DNA from: Lentisphaera marina
Lineage (GTDB): Bacteria > Verrucomicrobiota > Lentisphaeria > Lentisphaerales > Lentisphaeraceae
Assembly (NCBI RefSeq): GCF_028745505.1
Contig: NZ_JAQZZL010000002.1
Coordinates: 1-64,000 of the forward strand
DNA: 64,000 bases
Reading direction: 5' to 3'
Below the pieces are notes generated by a model. It did not search any database and was not told the origin of the DNA. It worked only from the letters and a program-made list of their open reading frames with translations. Made by a program: the position numbers and the translations under genes. Below, piece after piece: positions 7,218 through 63,778 of this stretch (position 1 is its first letter; each line of letters begins with the position of its first letter).

Positions 7218-8096
7218 ATGACCATCAAGGACTTAGAGTACTTTGCGATTCTCGCAAAAGAAAAACACTTCGGGCAAGCATCAATACTTGCCGGGGTGAG
7301 TCAGCCCGCGCTCTCAATCCAGATTAAAAAACTGGAGGCGGAGCTCGGTGTTTGTCTTTTTGAACGCTCAAATAAACAAGTCGTTTTGAGTTCAGAGGGG
7401 GAAACGCTTTTACAAAGAGCCGAATTGATTTTACAGCAAGTTTGCGATTTTCGCACTTGCGCCAAATCATTTGCCGACCCCTACCAAGGACAATTGATCT
7501 TGGGAGCTTTCCCCACTTTGGCACCTTACCTCTTCCCACAAGTTTTGGATGAACTCAATCATTCCTATCCTGAAATGAAGTTTTTTATCAAAGAAGAAAA
7601 GACAGAGCAGCTCTTAGCGATGCTAAAGCAGGGGAAAGTTGATGCCGCTTTTATTGCTTTACCTCATGAGGATAAATCTCTGGACTCAGAATTTATTTTT
7701 TCCGAGGAATTTCTTTTTGCGGCTCCCGCAAATTACTCCGAAAAACTTCCTTCAGAATTATCTAATCAAGATCTCAAGGGGCGAGAATTAATGCTCTTAG
7801 ACGAAGGTCATTGCTTCCGTGATCAAGCATTAGAATTTTGTAGTTTGAACCACCTGCAAGAAAGAAATGACTTCCGAGCGAGTAGTCTAGAAACCCTTCG
7901 CCAAATGGTGGCCGCAGGTCTGGGACTTACACTCATGCCAAAATGTGCTGAAGATGATAGTGGAAAAATCCAATACATCCCTTTTACGGCTCCAGCACCG
8001 CAAAGAGATATCGCACTCTTTTGGCGTAAAACTTCTCCTAAAGCAGAAATTTTTCGTGAAATTGCCGATGAATTAAAGAGCGTCCTAAAGAACTAA
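7218..8096 (+). CDS. oxyR: Hydrogen-peroxide-sensing LysR-type regulator OxyR
   Basis: The 292-residue protein opens with a LysR winged helix-turn-helix (MTIKDLEYFAILAKEKHFGQ..., VSQPALSIQIKKLE) close to E. coli OxyR. The regulatory domain keeps the OxyR signature LDEGHCFRDQALEFC, placing the two redox cysteines at 199 and 208, the same numbers as in E. coli, followed by RASSLETLRQMVAAGLGLTLMP. Oxidation to the C199-C208 disulfide would activate transcription of peroxide-defence genes. Its ATG directly follows the stop codon of the Lpd-like gene, so it is cotranscribed and translationally coupled. A second, broken copy of its 3' end lies 2.2 kb downstream (10115-10297). Confidence 0.95.
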   Translation: MTIKDLEYFAILAKEKHFGQASILAGVSQPALSIQIKKLEAELGVCLFERSNKQVVLSSEGETLLQRAELILQQVCDFRTCAKSFADPYQGQLILGAFPTLAPYLFPQVLDELNHSYPEMKFFIKEEKTEQLLAMLKQGKVDAAFIALPHEDKSLDSEFIFSEEFLFAAPANYSEKLPSELSNQDLKGRELMLLDEGHCFRDQALEFCSLNHLQERNDFRASSLETLRQMVAAGLGLTLMPKCAEDDSGKIQYIPFTAPAPQRDIALFWRKTSPKAEIFREIADELKSVLKN

Positions 8097-8139
8097 TTAT
8101 ATGACTTTAGCTAAAGTTGGTTTTGTAATTAGATTAAAT

Positions 8140-8727
8140 TTAGTAGTCCATAACAAATACTAGTCGATGGATACCTAGTTTTGAAATTTGAGGTGAGCGG
8201 TGTAGAACCTTAGATCTCTTTCCTGGATACAATGAACCTTTGAGTAGGATTGTATCACCTGTTTTCACATGATGGACTTCACAGTTATTTTTAGTCAACT
8301 TATATTCAGTTCCAGGACCAATTAAGGTGGTAATAGACCGCATGTGAAGGCTGTCGATATGAAATTTACGACAACTATCGGAATAGATTAGATCCATACG
8401 GCATTTCAGATAATTAGTTTTAAACCTTTCAAACATTGTTTCAGCTAGCACCTTTAATTGATGACAGCTTGAAAAGTCATTATAACCTAAGCTCAAAAAT
8501 GTATTAATAGCAAAAGCATTTACTTCATTGGCACTACGAGCTGTATAGCGGTAACTCTGATCTGTCCGATCTGTCCGATCTGTCCGATCTGTGGGGTTCA
8601 CAGGGGCATATGCTTCCTTATTGAAGGTAGCTTTACTAGTTACTTCTGTGATATTTTTTTTTGAAAATTTCACCGTATCATGAAGAATTTCATAACCCTT
8701 CGACCAAGTATCAATTGTTTTTATCAT
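8140..8727 (-). CDS. DUF1826 family protein, partner of COG0523 GTPases
   Basis: The 195-residue protein matches the DUF1826 family by its C-terminal signature: FHIDSLHMRSITTLIGPG (residues about 118-137), followed by an LKGSLYPG turn, HRSP and RLVFVMD. The H-x-D and later H resemble the metal-binding arrangement of cupin/2-oxoglutarate-oxygenase folds, which is only a suggestion. From what I know of the family it is found next to CobW/COG0523 genes in proteobacteria, exactly as here: the GTPase gene lies upstream on the same strand with a 19-base gap. An N-terminal TDRTDRTDRTD stretch is encoded by a 9-bp tandem repeat and is unusual for the family. Likely induced with the GTPase under metal (zinc) shortage. 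Confidence 0.75.
   Translation of the reverse strand: MIKTIDTWSKGYEILHDTVKFSKKNITEVTSKATFNKEAYAPVNPTDRTDRTDRTDQSYRYTARSANEVNAFAINTFLSLGYNDFSSCHQLKVLAETMFERFKTNYLKCRMDLIYSDSCRKFHIDSLHMRSITTLIGPGTEYKLTKNNCEVHHVKTGDTILLKGSLYPGKRSKVLHRSPQISKLGIHRLVFVMDY
8559..8592. repeat. 9-bp tandem repeat inside the DUF1826 gene
   Basis: Three full and one partial copies of GATCTGTCC run head to tail, encoding (Thr-Asp-Arg)n on the minus strand. The unit is a multiple of three, so copy-number change would lengthen or shorten the linker without a frameshift. Copies are identical, which suggests recent slippage. Confidence 0.85.
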
Positions 8728-8746
8728 GTGAGTATTTTCCTTTTAA

Positions 8747-9976
8747 TTATTCCGTAGTTGCCAGTTCAACTCGTTCTTCTTCACTAGTGATCATTTCTAG
8801 ATTGAACGGACTCTTGAAAGTTTCCCAATATTTTGGACCCTTTGTAAACTCATCATCATTTAACAGGCATGAATTAAGTTTTTGAGTGACGGTCTCTTTA
8901 TCGAGTTCAATTCCGATAAAAACAATTTCCTGTTTGCGGTCGCCATAGGGGCCTTCGAAAGTTTCTTTCATGTAGTCTGAATATTCGCCAGCAAGCTCGG
9001 GTTCTTCTTTGATAACGGCGGCCAACCATTTTCCCTCAACATTATAACTCAGCAATTCGCCAGCTTGCTGTACGCTTATGGCATAATCGTTGACATTAGC
9101 CAACCAAAAGGAGCCTTTTGAACGAATGATTCCACTCAATTTATCATTGACTAGATCAAAGAATCTTTGCGGATGGAAAGGACGTTTAGCTGTGTAGCAG
9201 AAGGATGAAATATTATATTCGTCCGATTCACTATCCTCTTCACCAATGAGCGTTTTCAACCATAGTGGTGATTTTGAGGCTTTTTCAAAATCAAAGAGTC
9301 CTGTATGGATAATCTCTTTAAGTTCAACTTTGCTGTAGTTAGTTTTAATTATTTTTGCATCGGAATTGAGAGAGCGGATAATCTGTTCATTTTGAAATAT
9401 TTGTTCTTCAGAACAGTCATTGACTTTATTTAAAATGATCACGTTGGCGAACTCAATTTGATCAACCAATAAAGCGGAAATAGGGCGTTGATCGTCTTCA
9501 TTAAGAAATTCATCGCGATCGGTGAGAATATCGATAGATTTGAAGTCTTTGGAAAAATTATAACTATCTACAACCGTCACCATTGTGTCTAACTGGGCTA
9601 TGTCCTTAAGAGAGAAACCACTTTCGTCTTCAAAGTCAAAAGTTTCTGCCACTGGCATAGGCTCAGAAATTCCTGTGGACTCGATAATGAGGTAATCAAA
9701 GCGATTTTCTTTGGCCAAGTGTTGAACCTCCTCCAGGAGGTCTTCCCGCAGCGTGCAACAGATACAGCCATTTGACATTTCAACGAGCTTTTCATCTTTC
9801 TGAGAAAGCGTATCACCATTATTTTTGATTAGCTGAGCATCTATATTAATCTCGGACATATCGTTGACAATGAGTGCAACTTTGAGCCCTTCTTTGTTAT
9901 TTAAAATGTGATTCAGTAAAGTCGTTTTACCGGAACCTAAAAATCCGGATAAAACCGTTACAGGTAATTTTTTCAT
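8747..9976 (-). CDS. CobW/COG0523 family metallochaperone GTPase
   Basis: The 409-residue P-loop GTPase has Walker A GFLGSGKT (residues 11-18), the metal-binding CICC (71-74) of the COG0523 family, the switch/Walker B region [11 protein letters not shown] and the NKVND G4 motif (ILNKVND), then the C-terminal CobW domain with the [12 protein letters not shown] signature. These proteins load zinc or cobalt on client enzymes. The DUF1826 partner and the twin Fur-family-like palindromes 35 bases upstream point to the zinc-starvation branch (ZigA/YciC-like), an inference from context. The ATG at 9976 is followed by the conserved [14 protein letters not shown] start, fixing the N-terminus. Confidence 0.9.
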
Positions 9977-10010
9977 TTTTATTATTCCTCAAAGTAATAT
10001 GCTTGCAGTT

Positions 10011-10036
10011 GTTATTGATAATTCATTATCAATAAC
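10011..10036. promoter_or_regulatory. Perfect 26-bp palindrome, proximal Fur/Zur-type operator
   Basis: Two 12-base arms (GTTATTGATAAT / ATTATCAATAAC) are separated by TC. The inner GATAAT-TC-ATTATC resembles the inverted GATAAT hexamers of Fur-family boxes, although the two-base centre differs from the classical 7-1-7 arrangement. It lies 34 bases before the CobW-like start on the minus strand, where repressor binding would block transcription. Zur is the most likely regulator given the gene cassette; no regulator gene is in the window. Confidence 0.7.
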
Positions 10037-10064
10037 AAAACCCGTCTTGACGAATAGTCAAATC

Positions 10065-10090
10065 ATTATTGATAATTCATTATCAATAAT
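10065..10090. promoter_or_regulatory. Perfect 26-bp palindrome, distal Fur/Zur-type operator
   Basis: Arms ATTATTGATAAT / ATTATCAATAAT with the same TC centre; it differs from the proximal palindrome only in the outermost base of each arm. Centre-to-centre distance is 54 bp, close to five helical turns, so two dimers would bind on the same DNA face. Confidence 0.7.
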
Positions 10091-10114
10091 ACATAGGAAG
10101 GGAAGAAAGGTCTT

Positions 10115-10297
10115 CAGGTCTGGGACTTACACTCATGCCAAAATGTGCTGAAGAAGATTGTGGGAAAAATTCAATACATCCCTTTTGCGACTCCCGCACC
10201 GCACAGAGATATCGCACTCTTTTGGCGTAAAACTTCTCCTAAAGCAGAAATCTTTCGTGAAATTGCCGATGAGCTTCGACCAAAATTAAGTAATTAA
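10115..10297 (+). pseudogene. Second, truncated and frameshifted copy of the oxyR 3' end
   Basis: From CAGGTCTGGGAC at 10115 the sequence repeats the end of oxyR that begins at 7915. Over about 157 bases I count eight substitutions and one inserted base, so roughly 94% identity; the insertion (near 10163) breaks the frame. The last codons then differ at DNA level but still read as a homologous tail (DELRPKLSN against DELKSVLKN) and end in TAA. The similarity starts abruptly at 10115 and has no upstream gene or start codon. It is a non-functional fragment in direct orientation to the intact gene, with the DUF1826-GTPase cassette between the two copies. Confidence 0.9.
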
Positions 10298-10381: not shown

Positions 10382-12127
10382 ATGAAAATCATCCAATCCT
10401 TAAGTCTCTGTCTCGTAGTTTTATGCTATTTTTCGACTCATGCCATTAGTGCAAGCAAAGGTCCGCTTGATCAAGCTAAGACATATTACGTAGCCCAGAC
10501 TGGGAAAGATAGCAATGAGGGCAGTCAAAGATCTCCATTTCAGTCAATACAGCAGGCGGCTAAAATTGCCAAAGCTGGCGATACCGTACTTATAGGCCAA
10601 GGGGTTTATAGAGAAATTCTATCTCCCCGTAACTCAGGGATCGAGTCGAAGCCCATAAGTTTTAAAGCTCTAGGAGATGGTGAAGTTGTTATTTCGGGCA
10701 ATCAAATTTTACAGAACTGGCAGCCCCTGAGTGATGGCAGTTGGAAAACTAAAATGGATTGGGATTTAGGAAATGAAAACCAGCTATTTTGTCAGGGTAA
10801 AATGATGATTTTGGCTCGCTGGCCAAATGATCGAGATGGAAAATTGATGACTGCTGATGGAGCACAAATAGAAGAGGGGAGTACTAATACGCAGATAAAA
10901 AATCAATCTTTTCCCGACCAATTCAATTCAAAAGATCTTAAGGGTGCCACTCTTTGGTCCGTGGCGGGTTCGCGTTGGTCTGCTTGGACACGCGTGGTGA
11001 CGGGATATAATCAAAAAGAAAAGGCAATAGCTATTCCCGAGCTCAAAGGCTTTTGGTTTGGCGAAATTCACTCACCTGCGAGTAAAAAGGGTGGTGAGTT
11101 CTACATATCAGGAAAGCGAGCTTTATTAGATAGTCCGGGGGAGTGGTATTATGATCGCAAGGCTCAAGAAATCTATTTCATGCCCCCGCGAGGAAAGGAC
11201 CCAAATCAACTTAAAATTGAAACTAAAAAGCGCCTATACGGCATAGATTTTCACAATAAAAAACATATCAATTTTGAGGGGATAAAACTCTTTGCTACTG
11301 CAGTACGTACGCAAAACATAGAGCATTGTCACTTTTCAAAGATCACCTTGCTTCACCCTACCCATACGGCATACATAAAATCAATGTTTTATCCTATCTC
11401 AGGAATAACGCTTTCAGGTCGTCATAATAGCATCAGCAACAGTGAATTGTCGTATTCACTCGATGGAGGTATAAAAGTACAGGGTGACGACAATCAGGTG
11501 GTGAATTGTTATATTCATGATTTTAATTATTTTGGTGCCAATGGTCGAGGTATTGAACTTAATGGCGATCGAAATTTAATCAGTCATAATACCCTAAGTC
11601 GAGCGGGGCGTTCCAGCATGAAACTCGCTGGTCAAGAAAACCTCATTCAACATAACGACATCTCTCATATGGGACTCATGACTCATGATACAGGTTGTAT
11701 ACATCTCGGTGGTCAAGATGGGCAAAACACCATAATCCGCTACAATATCTTACGTGATACGGGAGGCGAAGAAAACAATACAAATGCCATGTATTTCGAT
11801 AATTTTTGCCAGAACTTTATTGTGCATGATAATATCAGCTGGAATGTGCCCACCTCACTTCGTTTGAACCGCCCCTCAAATAATATTATGATTTTTAATA
11901 ATACTTTTGCGGGCATGATCAATAACCTCTATGGCCCCTGGGAACGTCAGAGAGATCAATGGGGAACTATGTTAGTGAATAATGTTGCTTTAAAAGAAAC
12001 AAAACGAAGAGGTCATAGTACCGAAATTTTGGTTAAAGAAGAAGTCCCCCTAGTGAGTAATTATAAGAATCATAAGGCTACTATTGGCGATTTTTTAAAT
12101 ACCGAGACCCTACAACTCGTGAAGTAG
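10382..12127 (+). CDS. Exported right-handed beta-helix protein, polysaccharide lyase-like (main part, ends at premature TAG)
   Basis: The 581-residue reading frame starts with a signal peptide (MKIIQSLSLCLVVLCYFSTHAISA) after CAGGAG. Residues about 34-85 hold the DUF1565-type opening YYVAQTGKDSNEGSQRSPF...QQAAKIAKAGDTVLIGQGVY, typical of secreted beta-helix proteins that act on polysaccharides. Residues about 340-540 show the right-handed beta-helix pattern of repeated short strands ending in Asn (NSISNSELSYS, NQVVNCYIHDF, NLISHNTLSRAG, NLIQHNDISHMG, NTIIRYNILRD). The frame stops at TAG 12125-12127 but continues open in the same frame to 12778, so the full gene would encode about 798 residues. 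Substrate unknown; algal or host glycan breakdown is plausible. Confidence 0.8.
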   Translation: MKIIQSLSLCLVVLCYFSTHAISASKGPLDQAKTYYVAQTGKDSNEGSQRSPFQSIQQAAKIAKAGDTVLIGQGVYREILSPRNSGIESKPISFKALGDGEVVISGNQILQNWQPLSDGSWKTKMDWDLGNENQLFCQGKMMILARWPNDRDGKLMTADGAQIEEGSTNTQIKNQSFPDQFNSKDLKGATLWSVAGSRWSAWTRVVTGYNQKEKAIAIPELKGFWFGEIHSPASKKGGEFYISGKRALLDSPGEWYYDRKAQEIYFMPPRGKDPNQLKIETKKRLYGIDFHNKKHINFEGIKLFATAVRTQNIEHCHFSKITLLHPTHTAYIKSMFYPISGITLSGRHNSISNSELSYSLDGGIKVQGDDNQVVNCYIHDFNYFGANGRGIELNGDRNLISHNTLSRAGRSSMKLAGQENLIQHNDISHMGLMTHDTGCIHLGGQDGQNTIIRYNILRDTGGEENNTNAMYFDNFCQNFIVHDNISWNVPTSLRLNRPSNNIMIFNNTFAGMINNLYGPWERQRDQWGTMLVNNVALKETKRRGHSTEILVKEEVPLVSNYKNHKATIGDFLNTETLQLVK

Positions 12128-12778
12128 CCATTGATTCAAGAGTCAATTATATCAAAAGGCACAGCAATTGATGGTATAGCGAGTTCTCGAAAGATGAATA
12201 TTGGAGCTTTAGATTATTCACAAGCACTTTTTAAAGCAGGGCACGACTTTAAGAAGCCACCACGAAAAGTGCATTACCAAAACGCAGATCATATTCATAA
12301 TCGCAATCATATTATCAATGGCGGTTTCTCAAAAAATGAAAAAAATTGGTTGCCGATCAATGCAAAGCCTGTGAGGTATAAGCTTCATCCGGGTTTTAAT
12401 AAAAACCCAGGTGCCGCTGAACGTGATTCAATACATGGAGTTAGTGTAACACTCGAAAAATCCGAGTCAGGTATAAAACAGACGATAAAAACGCTCAAAC
12501 CCAATACAAAATACTACTTCAGTGCCTATGTCAGGCATGGTGAATTATCTGATACACTCTTTTCAGTCCTCAATTCCAAAGCAGAGAAAATAAGCGCTAA
12601 ACATAGTAGTTCATTCGCTATGAAGAAGGGCTGGCGTTTAGTGATAGTTCCCTTCACAAGTCCGAAGAATGCTCAGGTTACAGTAAGTATTCAAAATACT
12701 AAGGACAAAGAAGTGCATGTTGATAATGTCGGCGTCATTCCCGCCATGTTTATTGACTTGAGTAATATTTCGATATAG
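12128..12778 (+). pseudogene. C-terminal part of the beta-helix gene, cut off by an in-frame stop
   Basis: This open frame is in the same phase as the beta-helix gene and follows its TAG without any gap, start codon or ribosome-binding site (the only near start is TTG 12131). It begins with the normal closing turn of such proteins, SIISKGTAIDGIASSRKMNIGALDY, where the ...AIDaG...IGA pattern finishes the beta-helix. Residues after that (NGGFSKNEKNWLPI ... VHVDNVGVIP) look like a carbohydrate-binding CBM4_9-type jelly-roll module. It was therefore part of one protein. Without suppression it would not be translated efficiently. Confidence 0.75.
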
Positions 12779-51672: not shown

Positions 51673-51749
51673 GGGGTTGTAGCTCAATTGGTTAGAGCGC
51701 TGGCCTGTCACGCCAGAGGTTGCGAGTTCAAGTCTCGTCAACCTCGCCA
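51673..51749 (+). tRNA. tRNA-Asp (anticodon GTC), copy 1
   Basis: 77 bases with 3' CCA encoded. Acceptor GGGGTTG / CAACCTC (one G-T pair), D arm GCTC-AATTGGTTA-GAGC, anticodon arm CTGGC-CTGTCAC-GCCAG (GTC), T arm TGCGAGTTCAAGTCTCGT. It is identical to copy 2. Flanking bases GAAATGTTTGAAG (51659-51671) and CTTCAAGCATTTC (51750-51762) pair over 13 positions, extending the acceptor stem in the precursor. Confidence 0.97.
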
Positions 51750-51783
51750 CTTCAAGCATTTCATATAGCAACTTTTTTCGAGT

Positions 51784-51860
51784 GGGGTTGTAGCTCAATT
51801 GGTTAGAGCGCTGGCCTGTCACGCCAGAGGTTGCGAGTTCAAGTCTCGTCAACCTCGCCA
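51784..51860 (+). tRNA. tRNA-Asp (anticodon GTC), copy 2
   Basis: Identical in sequence to copy 1, starting 111 bases later with a 34-base spacer. CCA is encoded. Such tandem duplicates are common in tRNA operons. Confidence 0.97.
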
Positions 51861-51874
51861 CTCTTAAAACTCAT

Positions 51875-51947
51875 GGTGGAATAGCTCAGTTGGTAGAGCA
51901 GCGGAATCATAATCCGCCTGTCGTGGGTTCAAGTCCCTCTTCCACTA
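51875..51947 (+). tRNA. tRNA-Met (anticodon CAT), elongator-like
   Basis: 73 bases; acceptor GGTGGAA / TTCCACT (first pair G-T), D arm GCTC-AGTTGGTA-GAGC, anticodon arm GCGGA-ATCATAA-TCCGC with CAT, T arm GTGGG-TTCAAGT-CCCTC with one mismatch. CCA is not encoded. The initiator features (three GC pairs in the anticodon stem) are absent, so it is an elongator Met or, less likely, a lysidine-modified Ile tRNA. Confidence 0.9.
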
Positions 51948-51949
51948 CT

Positions 51950-63649: not shown

Positions 63650-63778
63650 TTATTTCTTTTTTTTGGGCTTAGGTGGTTTTGTTAAGCTGAGTTCTTCAAT
63701 GGTGTAGGGTTTAGTTCTACGTTTTGACCAGCCTCTAATTTTTGCGGTTTCCGCAATACTTAGAATTAAGCCCGGCAG
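63650..63778 (-). other. Open reading frame remnant without start, lysine-rich end
   Basis: The minus strand reads LPGLILSIAETAKIRG, then WSKRRTKPYTIEELSL, then TKPPKPKKKK and TAA. It has coding-like character (proline/lysine-rich tail after a basic helix) but no ATG/GTG/TTG start; an in-frame TAA lies 9 bases upstream of the segment. It could be the 3' end of a lost gene or chance. Confidence 0.3.

Follow-up and report, generated by a model that had tools for sequence, protein, structure and literature searches.

A DUF1826-CobW cassette bracketed by two copies of an oxyR-like gene end in Lentisphaera marina

The oxyR locus and its duplicated 3' end

The window analysed here is a whole stretch of 64,000 nucleotides (nt) of the Lentisphaera marina genome (assembly GCF_028745505.1, contig NZ_JAQZZL010000002.1, positions 1 to 64,000 of the forward strand), and it encodes an oxyR-like LysR-type regulator whose 3' end is present a second time on the far side of a two-gene cassette. 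The regulator closes a cluster of VWA, peroxiredoxin-glutaredoxin, pyridine-nucleotide oxidoreductase and LysR genes that is colinear in G001 and G002, two genomes of the same genus. The two copies of the gene end bracket a DUF1826 gene, a COG0523/CobW gene and two Zur-like operators only, an arrangement that probably reflects horizontal acquisition of the cassette. The features of the locus are listed below in window coordinates.

7218-8096, forward strand: intact LysR-type regulator gene (oxyR-like), 292 residues, with Pfam domains HTH_1 and LysR_substrate
7915-8071, forward strand: copy 1 of the duplicated block, within the last 182 nt of the intact oxyR
8072-8096, forward strand: copy-1 tail, LKSVLKN*, proposed to have arrived with the insert
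8140-8727, reverse strand: DUF1826 gene (PF08856, E = 2.5e-21)
8747-9976, reverse strand: COG0523/CobW G3E GTPase gene, a putative zinc metallochaperone (PF02492 and PF07683, with a CxCC motif in the translation)
10012-10035, no strand: operator 1, a Zur-like palindrome of 24 nt, TTATTGATAATTCATTATCAATAA, upstream of CobW
10066-10089, no strand: operator 2, 24 nt with the same letters as operator 1 (TTATTGATAATTCATTATCAATAA), upstream of CobW
10090-10114, no strand: distal insert end and non-homologous junction, assigned from the sequence
10115-10272, forward strand: second copy of the block (copy 2), decaying and with a frameshift from one inserted G
10273-10297, forward strand: copy-2 tail, LRPKLSN*, the proposed displaced end of the resident gene

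The two copies of the block align over 158 columns with 94.3% identity, eight substitutions and the one inserted G (E = 5e-62). Block DNA matches the whole 5.3-Mb genome in two places only, 7915-8071 and 10115-10272, and with a single second match in a genome of this size the repeat is not a product of chance. The left edge of the block is abrupt, at CAGGTCTGGG, and the right edge is marked by GATGA, 25 nt ahead of the last base of the oxyR stop codon. Past this right edge, 16 of the 25 positions in the tails at 8072-8096 and 10273-10297 are different (64%, compared with 5% in the block; p = 3e-11 in a Fisher test of tails versus block). The translations read ...DELKSVLKN* in copy 1 and ...DELRPKLSN* in copy 2. 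Each tail still codes for a plausible end of the protein and reaches its stop after the same number of bases, so the pair resembles two homologous alleles more than ends produced at random. A preliminary description of this DNA had claimed a sharply starting repeat of the oxyR 3' end at about 94% identity beyond the cassette, a frameshift in the far copy, and tails that differ as DNA and remain homologous as protein (DELRPKLSN against DELKSVLKN), all of which the alignment bears out. The extent it gave to the repeat, 10115-10297, stands for the block as far as 10272, and the last 25 nt belong instead to the divergent tail. An assembly artefact is unlikely, as the copies differ from one another, their flanks are unique and the genome is assembled in 3 contigs.

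When the differences are polarised with G001 and G002, the frameshift and most of the amino-acid changes fall on copy 2, and the changes in copy 1 are mostly silent. The last bases of copy 1 (ATTTTTCG...GATGAATTAAAG) resemble G001, as do the first bases of its tail. The first bases of the copy-2 tail resemble G002, to which the genes upstream of oxyR are also nearer. These likenesses are a weak sign that the resident gene end is the copy-2 tail and that the copy-1 tail came with the cassette. The copy-2 block also looks resident because the blocks are 94% identical while the tails are not, and this near-identity points to resident DNA in both blocks and so to a true duplication of the target. 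Within oxyR itself, the sequence from about 7.35 kb on is nearer to G001, whereas the upstream genes are nearer to G002, and the gene at 7218-8096 is possibly an allelic mosaic.

The inserted cassette

No integrase or transposase gene is present between the oxyR copies, where DUF1826 and CobW are the sole genes. The N-terminal part of the DUF1826 product contains TDR/DRT repeats that are encoded by in-frame 9-bp repeats at 8556-8591. The core of the operator palindrome, TTGATAAT-NN-ATTATCAA, has five occurrences in the genome, against 0 in the reversed control. The exact operator is also found beside a MerC-family gene and a gene for a His-rich putative outer-membrane protein, associations that recur in the congeners, and two such operator sites are also present at the CobW gene of G002 and at the DUF1826 gene of G001. 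Clusters of COG0523 and DUF1826 genes with predicted Zur regulation have been published (Haas et al. 2009, PMC2770081; PMC5786701). They resemble the present cassette in that both families occur together with palindromic operators upstream of the pair; the difference is that the operator TTGATAAT-NN-ATTATCAA is here a predicted Zur site, derived solely from the sites that share it. The cassette is thus described as a putative zinc-starvation unit, a label that is well founded by association, though not proven, because the operator is shared with other metal genes and Zur-predicted COG0523/DUF1826 clusters are on record.

The hexamer AGGTCT lies just before the distal junction and again just inside the start of the block, and this 6-bp match may represent microhomology at the junction, for which it is suggestive only. 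An integron- or transposon-type insertion is rejected: terminal inverted repeats were not noted at either edge, and the insert encodes no transposase. COG0523 genes are common on plasmids, and a direct plasmid-borne origin of the cassette is disfavoured, as the best plasmid matches, annotated as zigA, are only about 55% identical.

The locus and the cassette genes in related genomes

The oxyR sites of G001 and G002 contain neither the cassette nor a second copy of the gene end, and the oxyR 3' end is single in the loci of G001, G002, G005 and G003. The next gene in G002, about 100 bp past oxyR, is the ortholog of window gene 12924. In G001 other genes, prepilin-like and acyltransferase-like, come after oxyR, and no oxyR 3' fragment was found past this G001 insert by tblastn. 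The cassette genes reside at other loci in both congeners: G002 encodes DUF1826-CobW between haem-NO-binding-like and recBCD-type genes, and G001 encodes DUF1826 without this CobW. No recD 3' fragment is present past the cassette in G002, and no direct repeats of 35 nt or more surround the cassette in G002, G004 or G005; in G003, the direct-repeat matches around the cassette include similarity between CobW paralogues. The identity of CobW is nearly flat across genera (78% in G002, 75% in G004 and 69% in G005), whereas that of oxyR drops from about 80% to 54%, a contrast that fits transfer of the cassette.

Insertion is supported by the cassette-free oxyR sites of both congeners together with the presence of the cassette genes at other loci. 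The empty site that the preliminary description predicted, with oxyR directly followed by the beta-helix gene, was not found, since G002 runs from oxyR to the 12924 ortholog and the beta-helix gene is absent there too. Neither congener has this gene, which follows copy 2 in L. marina (from 10382), at its oxyR site, and its absence is therefore a difference separate from the cassette. Within the beta-helix gene (10382-12778), one in-frame TAG at 12125-12127 seems to interrupt the reading frame, which runs on in the same phase to 12778.

Similar scars elsewhere in the genus

A self-comparison survey covered about 1.9 Mb of the 5.3-Mb L. marina genome (G000) and 0.32 Mb of G001. Open reading frames (ORFs) were called by script, repeats of at least 78% identity were considered and one-sided cases were sorted by hand, a procedure that misses older scars. 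The surveyed stretches contain ten one-sided duplications of a gene 3' end, oxyR included, against one of a 5' end, which sits in a stretch rich in insertion sequences, plus one island at a tRNA-Leu gene. At 9 to 1, the count before the last stretch was added, the excess of 3' ends gives a two-sided binomial p of 0.02. The cases besides oxyR are listed below.

C2:70263-72848: case A, cytochrome/dehydrogenase-like gene, duplicated part C2:70269-70374, copy at window 63653-63758; 6.5-kb insert with prepilin, beta-helix, sulfatase and hydrolase genes
C2:82995-83375: case B, YchJ-like gene; insert with MazE-type antitoxin and Fic/Doc toxin genes
C1:81918-82562: case C, 6-phosphogluconolactonase-like gene; insert with a Y1-type transposase gene
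C2:2134555-2135514: case D, AraC gene; insert with HNOB and HNOBA genes
C2:2339815-2342067: case E; insert with prepilin, sigma factor and kinase genes
C2:2218414-2220447: kinase gene, with the fragment upstream instead
C2:929087-932125 / 933900: two similar prepilin genes, looking partly tandem
G001: two cases, at a prepilin gene and a SEL1-type gene

Eight cases were aligned in detail. In all of them the gene end is restored and a 3' fragment is displaced, and the end of the block falls within -26 to +56 relative to the stop codon. Block lengths across the cases vary from 45 to 377 bp. No crossover motif or att core common to all cases is seen by eye at the eight left junctions; each integrase could have a core of its own. 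The tRNA-Leu island (L133:4155-17354) has the same layout over 13 kb, with a 99-bp copy of the gene 3' end, and no integrase was found among its scanned ORFs. Its cargo comprises sulfatases, a sigma factor, a protein kinase and an alpha-galactosidase. The other inserts that were scanned against Pfam contain no integrase either, and case C carries the Y1-type transposase.

Two of these cases speak for transfer, judged from their alignments with the congeners. For case B, G001 provides an empty site; the displaced copy ends in HSIV as does G001, and the intact gene ends in HSII as does G002, which has the same toxin-antitoxin insert and no second copy. In case D, a segment with its start within the 3' end of AraC shares 90-93.5% identity with a segment at a non-AraC locus of G001, against a background of 73-80%, and both AraC fragments lie inside the transferred segment, an arrangement more complex than that at oxyR. 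This segment, at C2:2135343-2139257 of G000 (L158) and at L182, combines the AraC 3' end with haem-NO sensor and HipA/HipB-like genes, occupies different loci in the two species and has its right edge just past a stop codon. Gene acquisition in this genus seems often to leave such a scar. The proposal that a regulator is the special target does not hold, as the same anatomy is found at AraC, YchJ-like, 6-phosphogluconolactonase-like and other genes and at tRNA-Leu. Likeness to tRNA-type islands, which had also been proposed, extends to the anatomy and stops at the integrase and the shared crossover motif, of which the former was not seen in the scanned inserts and the latter is not evident.

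Elsewhere in G000, a HipA/HipB-like pair at C2:280463-282597 is bracketed by 94-bp intergenic direct repeats (95% identity). The window also contains, at 51673-51948, a tandem pair of nearly identical tRNA-Asp genes with a tRNA-Met gene behind it.

Origin of the duplication

The reading that best accounts for the oxyR locus, with a probability of roughly 0.55, is that the cassette was horizontally acquired and added downstream of oxyR by an integrase-free, homology-anchored recombination with a long target duplication. We infer the donor, the one-sided homology and the order of events as follows. Donor DNA would have carried an oxyR-like gene end ahead of the cassette and crossed into the last part of the resident oxyR, probably near the conserved GAAATTGCCGATGA, a stretch that is identical in both copies and in G001 and G002, so that the gene gained the donor tail. 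At its other end the donor DNA would have been joined, with no extended homology, to CAGGTCTGGG, a site of the resident gene that lies upstream of the crossover. As a result, the final 182 nt of the resident gene would have been repeated past the insert, with the regulator staying intact and copy 2 left to decay. The identity of the blocks favours one homologous crossover near GAAATTGCCGATGA together with a non-homologous joint. In a comparison with the congeners G001 and G002, the exchange of tails at GATGA and the abruptness of the left edge fit a homologous crossover at one end only. All three genomes encode a ComEC homologue, which is compatible with DNA uptake, but such homologues are common. 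The earlier suggestion that a foreign segment was acquired by recombination within the oxyR 3' end is supported by the cassette-free congener sites and the allelic tails.

Several points weigh against this account. Published products of homology-facilitated illegitimate recombination generally combine an insertion with a matching deletion, rather than a duplication (PMC3240628). The assignment of the tails to donor and resident draws on a weak similarity to G001 and G002, and the nearer relationship of oxyR to G001, when the upstream genes are nearer to G002, may indicate a larger or older replacement. The left flank of case B is homologous but diverged and case D carries both fragments, so the cases need not share a route, and a single mechanism for all of them is not proven. 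Selection for an intact gene with its promoter could also explain the 3' bias, because duplication of the 3' end leaves the gene whole and under its own promoter. It is doubtful that a dedicated or strongly biased integrase-free process often underlies gene acquisition in this genus, docking foreign segments at stop-codon ends, swapping the gene tail and leaving the old 3' end past the insert, with gene ends as portable docking sites and mobile segments that carry gene 3' ends as their termini.

A single crossover followed by conversion is a real rival at oxyR, if a tentative one. In this Campbell-type integration, a donor with an oxyR 3' fragment and the cassette would be circularised by end joining and enter through one RecA crossover that swaps the tails, and gap repair or later gene conversion would even out the blocks. 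The outcome would be the same layout of intact gene, insert, 3' fragment and swapped tails; ligation of linear DNA with a RecA-dependent single crossover is documented in E. coli (PMC3240628), and copy 2 of case B has the homologous but diverged left flank that a donor fragment would show. A donor as diverged as the tails would, however, make the blocks differ far beyond 6%, and either conversion or a close donor is needed.

The restored gene end in every case aligned in detail, the tRNA-Leu island with its 99-bp 3' copy in the same genome and the strong preference for 3' ends are also what the remnant of a site-specific integrative element would leave. Such an element, of the tyrosine recombinase type, would target gene 3' ends, with the integrase lost or acting in trans and the repeats representing attL and attR. 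This origin is nevertheless unlikely, given an oxyR insert of two genes without an integrase, the lack of one in the other scanned inserts, and targets that are unrelated, have no evident core at the listed left junctions and bear blocks of variable length. It is very unlikely that oxyR, or its 3' end, was duplicated in tandem and that decay and an independent insertion of the cassette between the copies came later. The closeness of the copies (94%) and the decay of copy 2 agree with such a history, and the prepilin genes at C2:929087-932125 / 933900 look partly tandem. The preliminary description had tied this alternative to relatives with two full oxyR genes, but neither congener has a second oxyR end. 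Tandem duplication also leaves the 64% difference between the tails, against 5% in the block, unexplained, and case D shows a gene 3' end moving with cargo between species.

Comparison with known systems

Many accessory genes have no mobile element in the genome to explain their arrival, and the repeated scar shows how genes can be inserted after conserved genes that stay unbroken. Should the 3' bias and the stop-codon boundary hold over more genomes, the scar would serve to find integrase-free insertions, the two tails would tell incoming from resident sequence, and one could ask whether natural transformation drives such insertions.

Genomic islands are found at the 3' ends of genes, among them tRNA genes, icd and others. 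The scars described here share with them an intact gene with a replaced 3' end, the insert and a displaced 3' fragment, and differ in that no integrase was found, the targets are many and unrelated, and there is no evident common core. Homology-facilitated illegitimate recombination is known from Streptococcus pneumoniae, Acinetobacter baylyi and Pseudomonas stutzeri, in which the usual product deletes resident DNA and the junction has 3-10 bp of microhomology (PMC3240628). The likeness lies in one homologous end with the other joined by little or no homology, as proposed for oxyR; the difference lies in the 158-bp duplication, which has no coupled deletion and no more than a 6-bp match nearby.

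Insertion with long target duplication was described as a gene mobility mechanism in Helicobacter pylori (Nobusato, Uchiyama, Ohashi and Kobayashi, Gene 2000, as cited in PMC1643837 and PMC3031569), and the comparison made here draws on the descriptions in these citing papers. As described there, the cargo is absent from a relative and the long direct repeats are copies of a target that is single in the relative. At oxyR, likewise, the insert is absent from G001 and G002, a 158-column repeat of a single target flanks it and it carries no transposase or integrase. The cargo in H. pylori is described as frequently consisting of restriction-modification genes, a trait that does not define the class, and the DUF1826/CobW cargo makes membership of the oxyR insert less firm. 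Other cargo in this genus includes toxin-antitoxin genes, haem-NO sensors and sulfatases, and the repeats here are gene 3' ends with a swapped tail. The oxyR scar is therefore a known kind of event, unusual in its use of gene 3' ends, its swapped tails and its recurrence over the genus.

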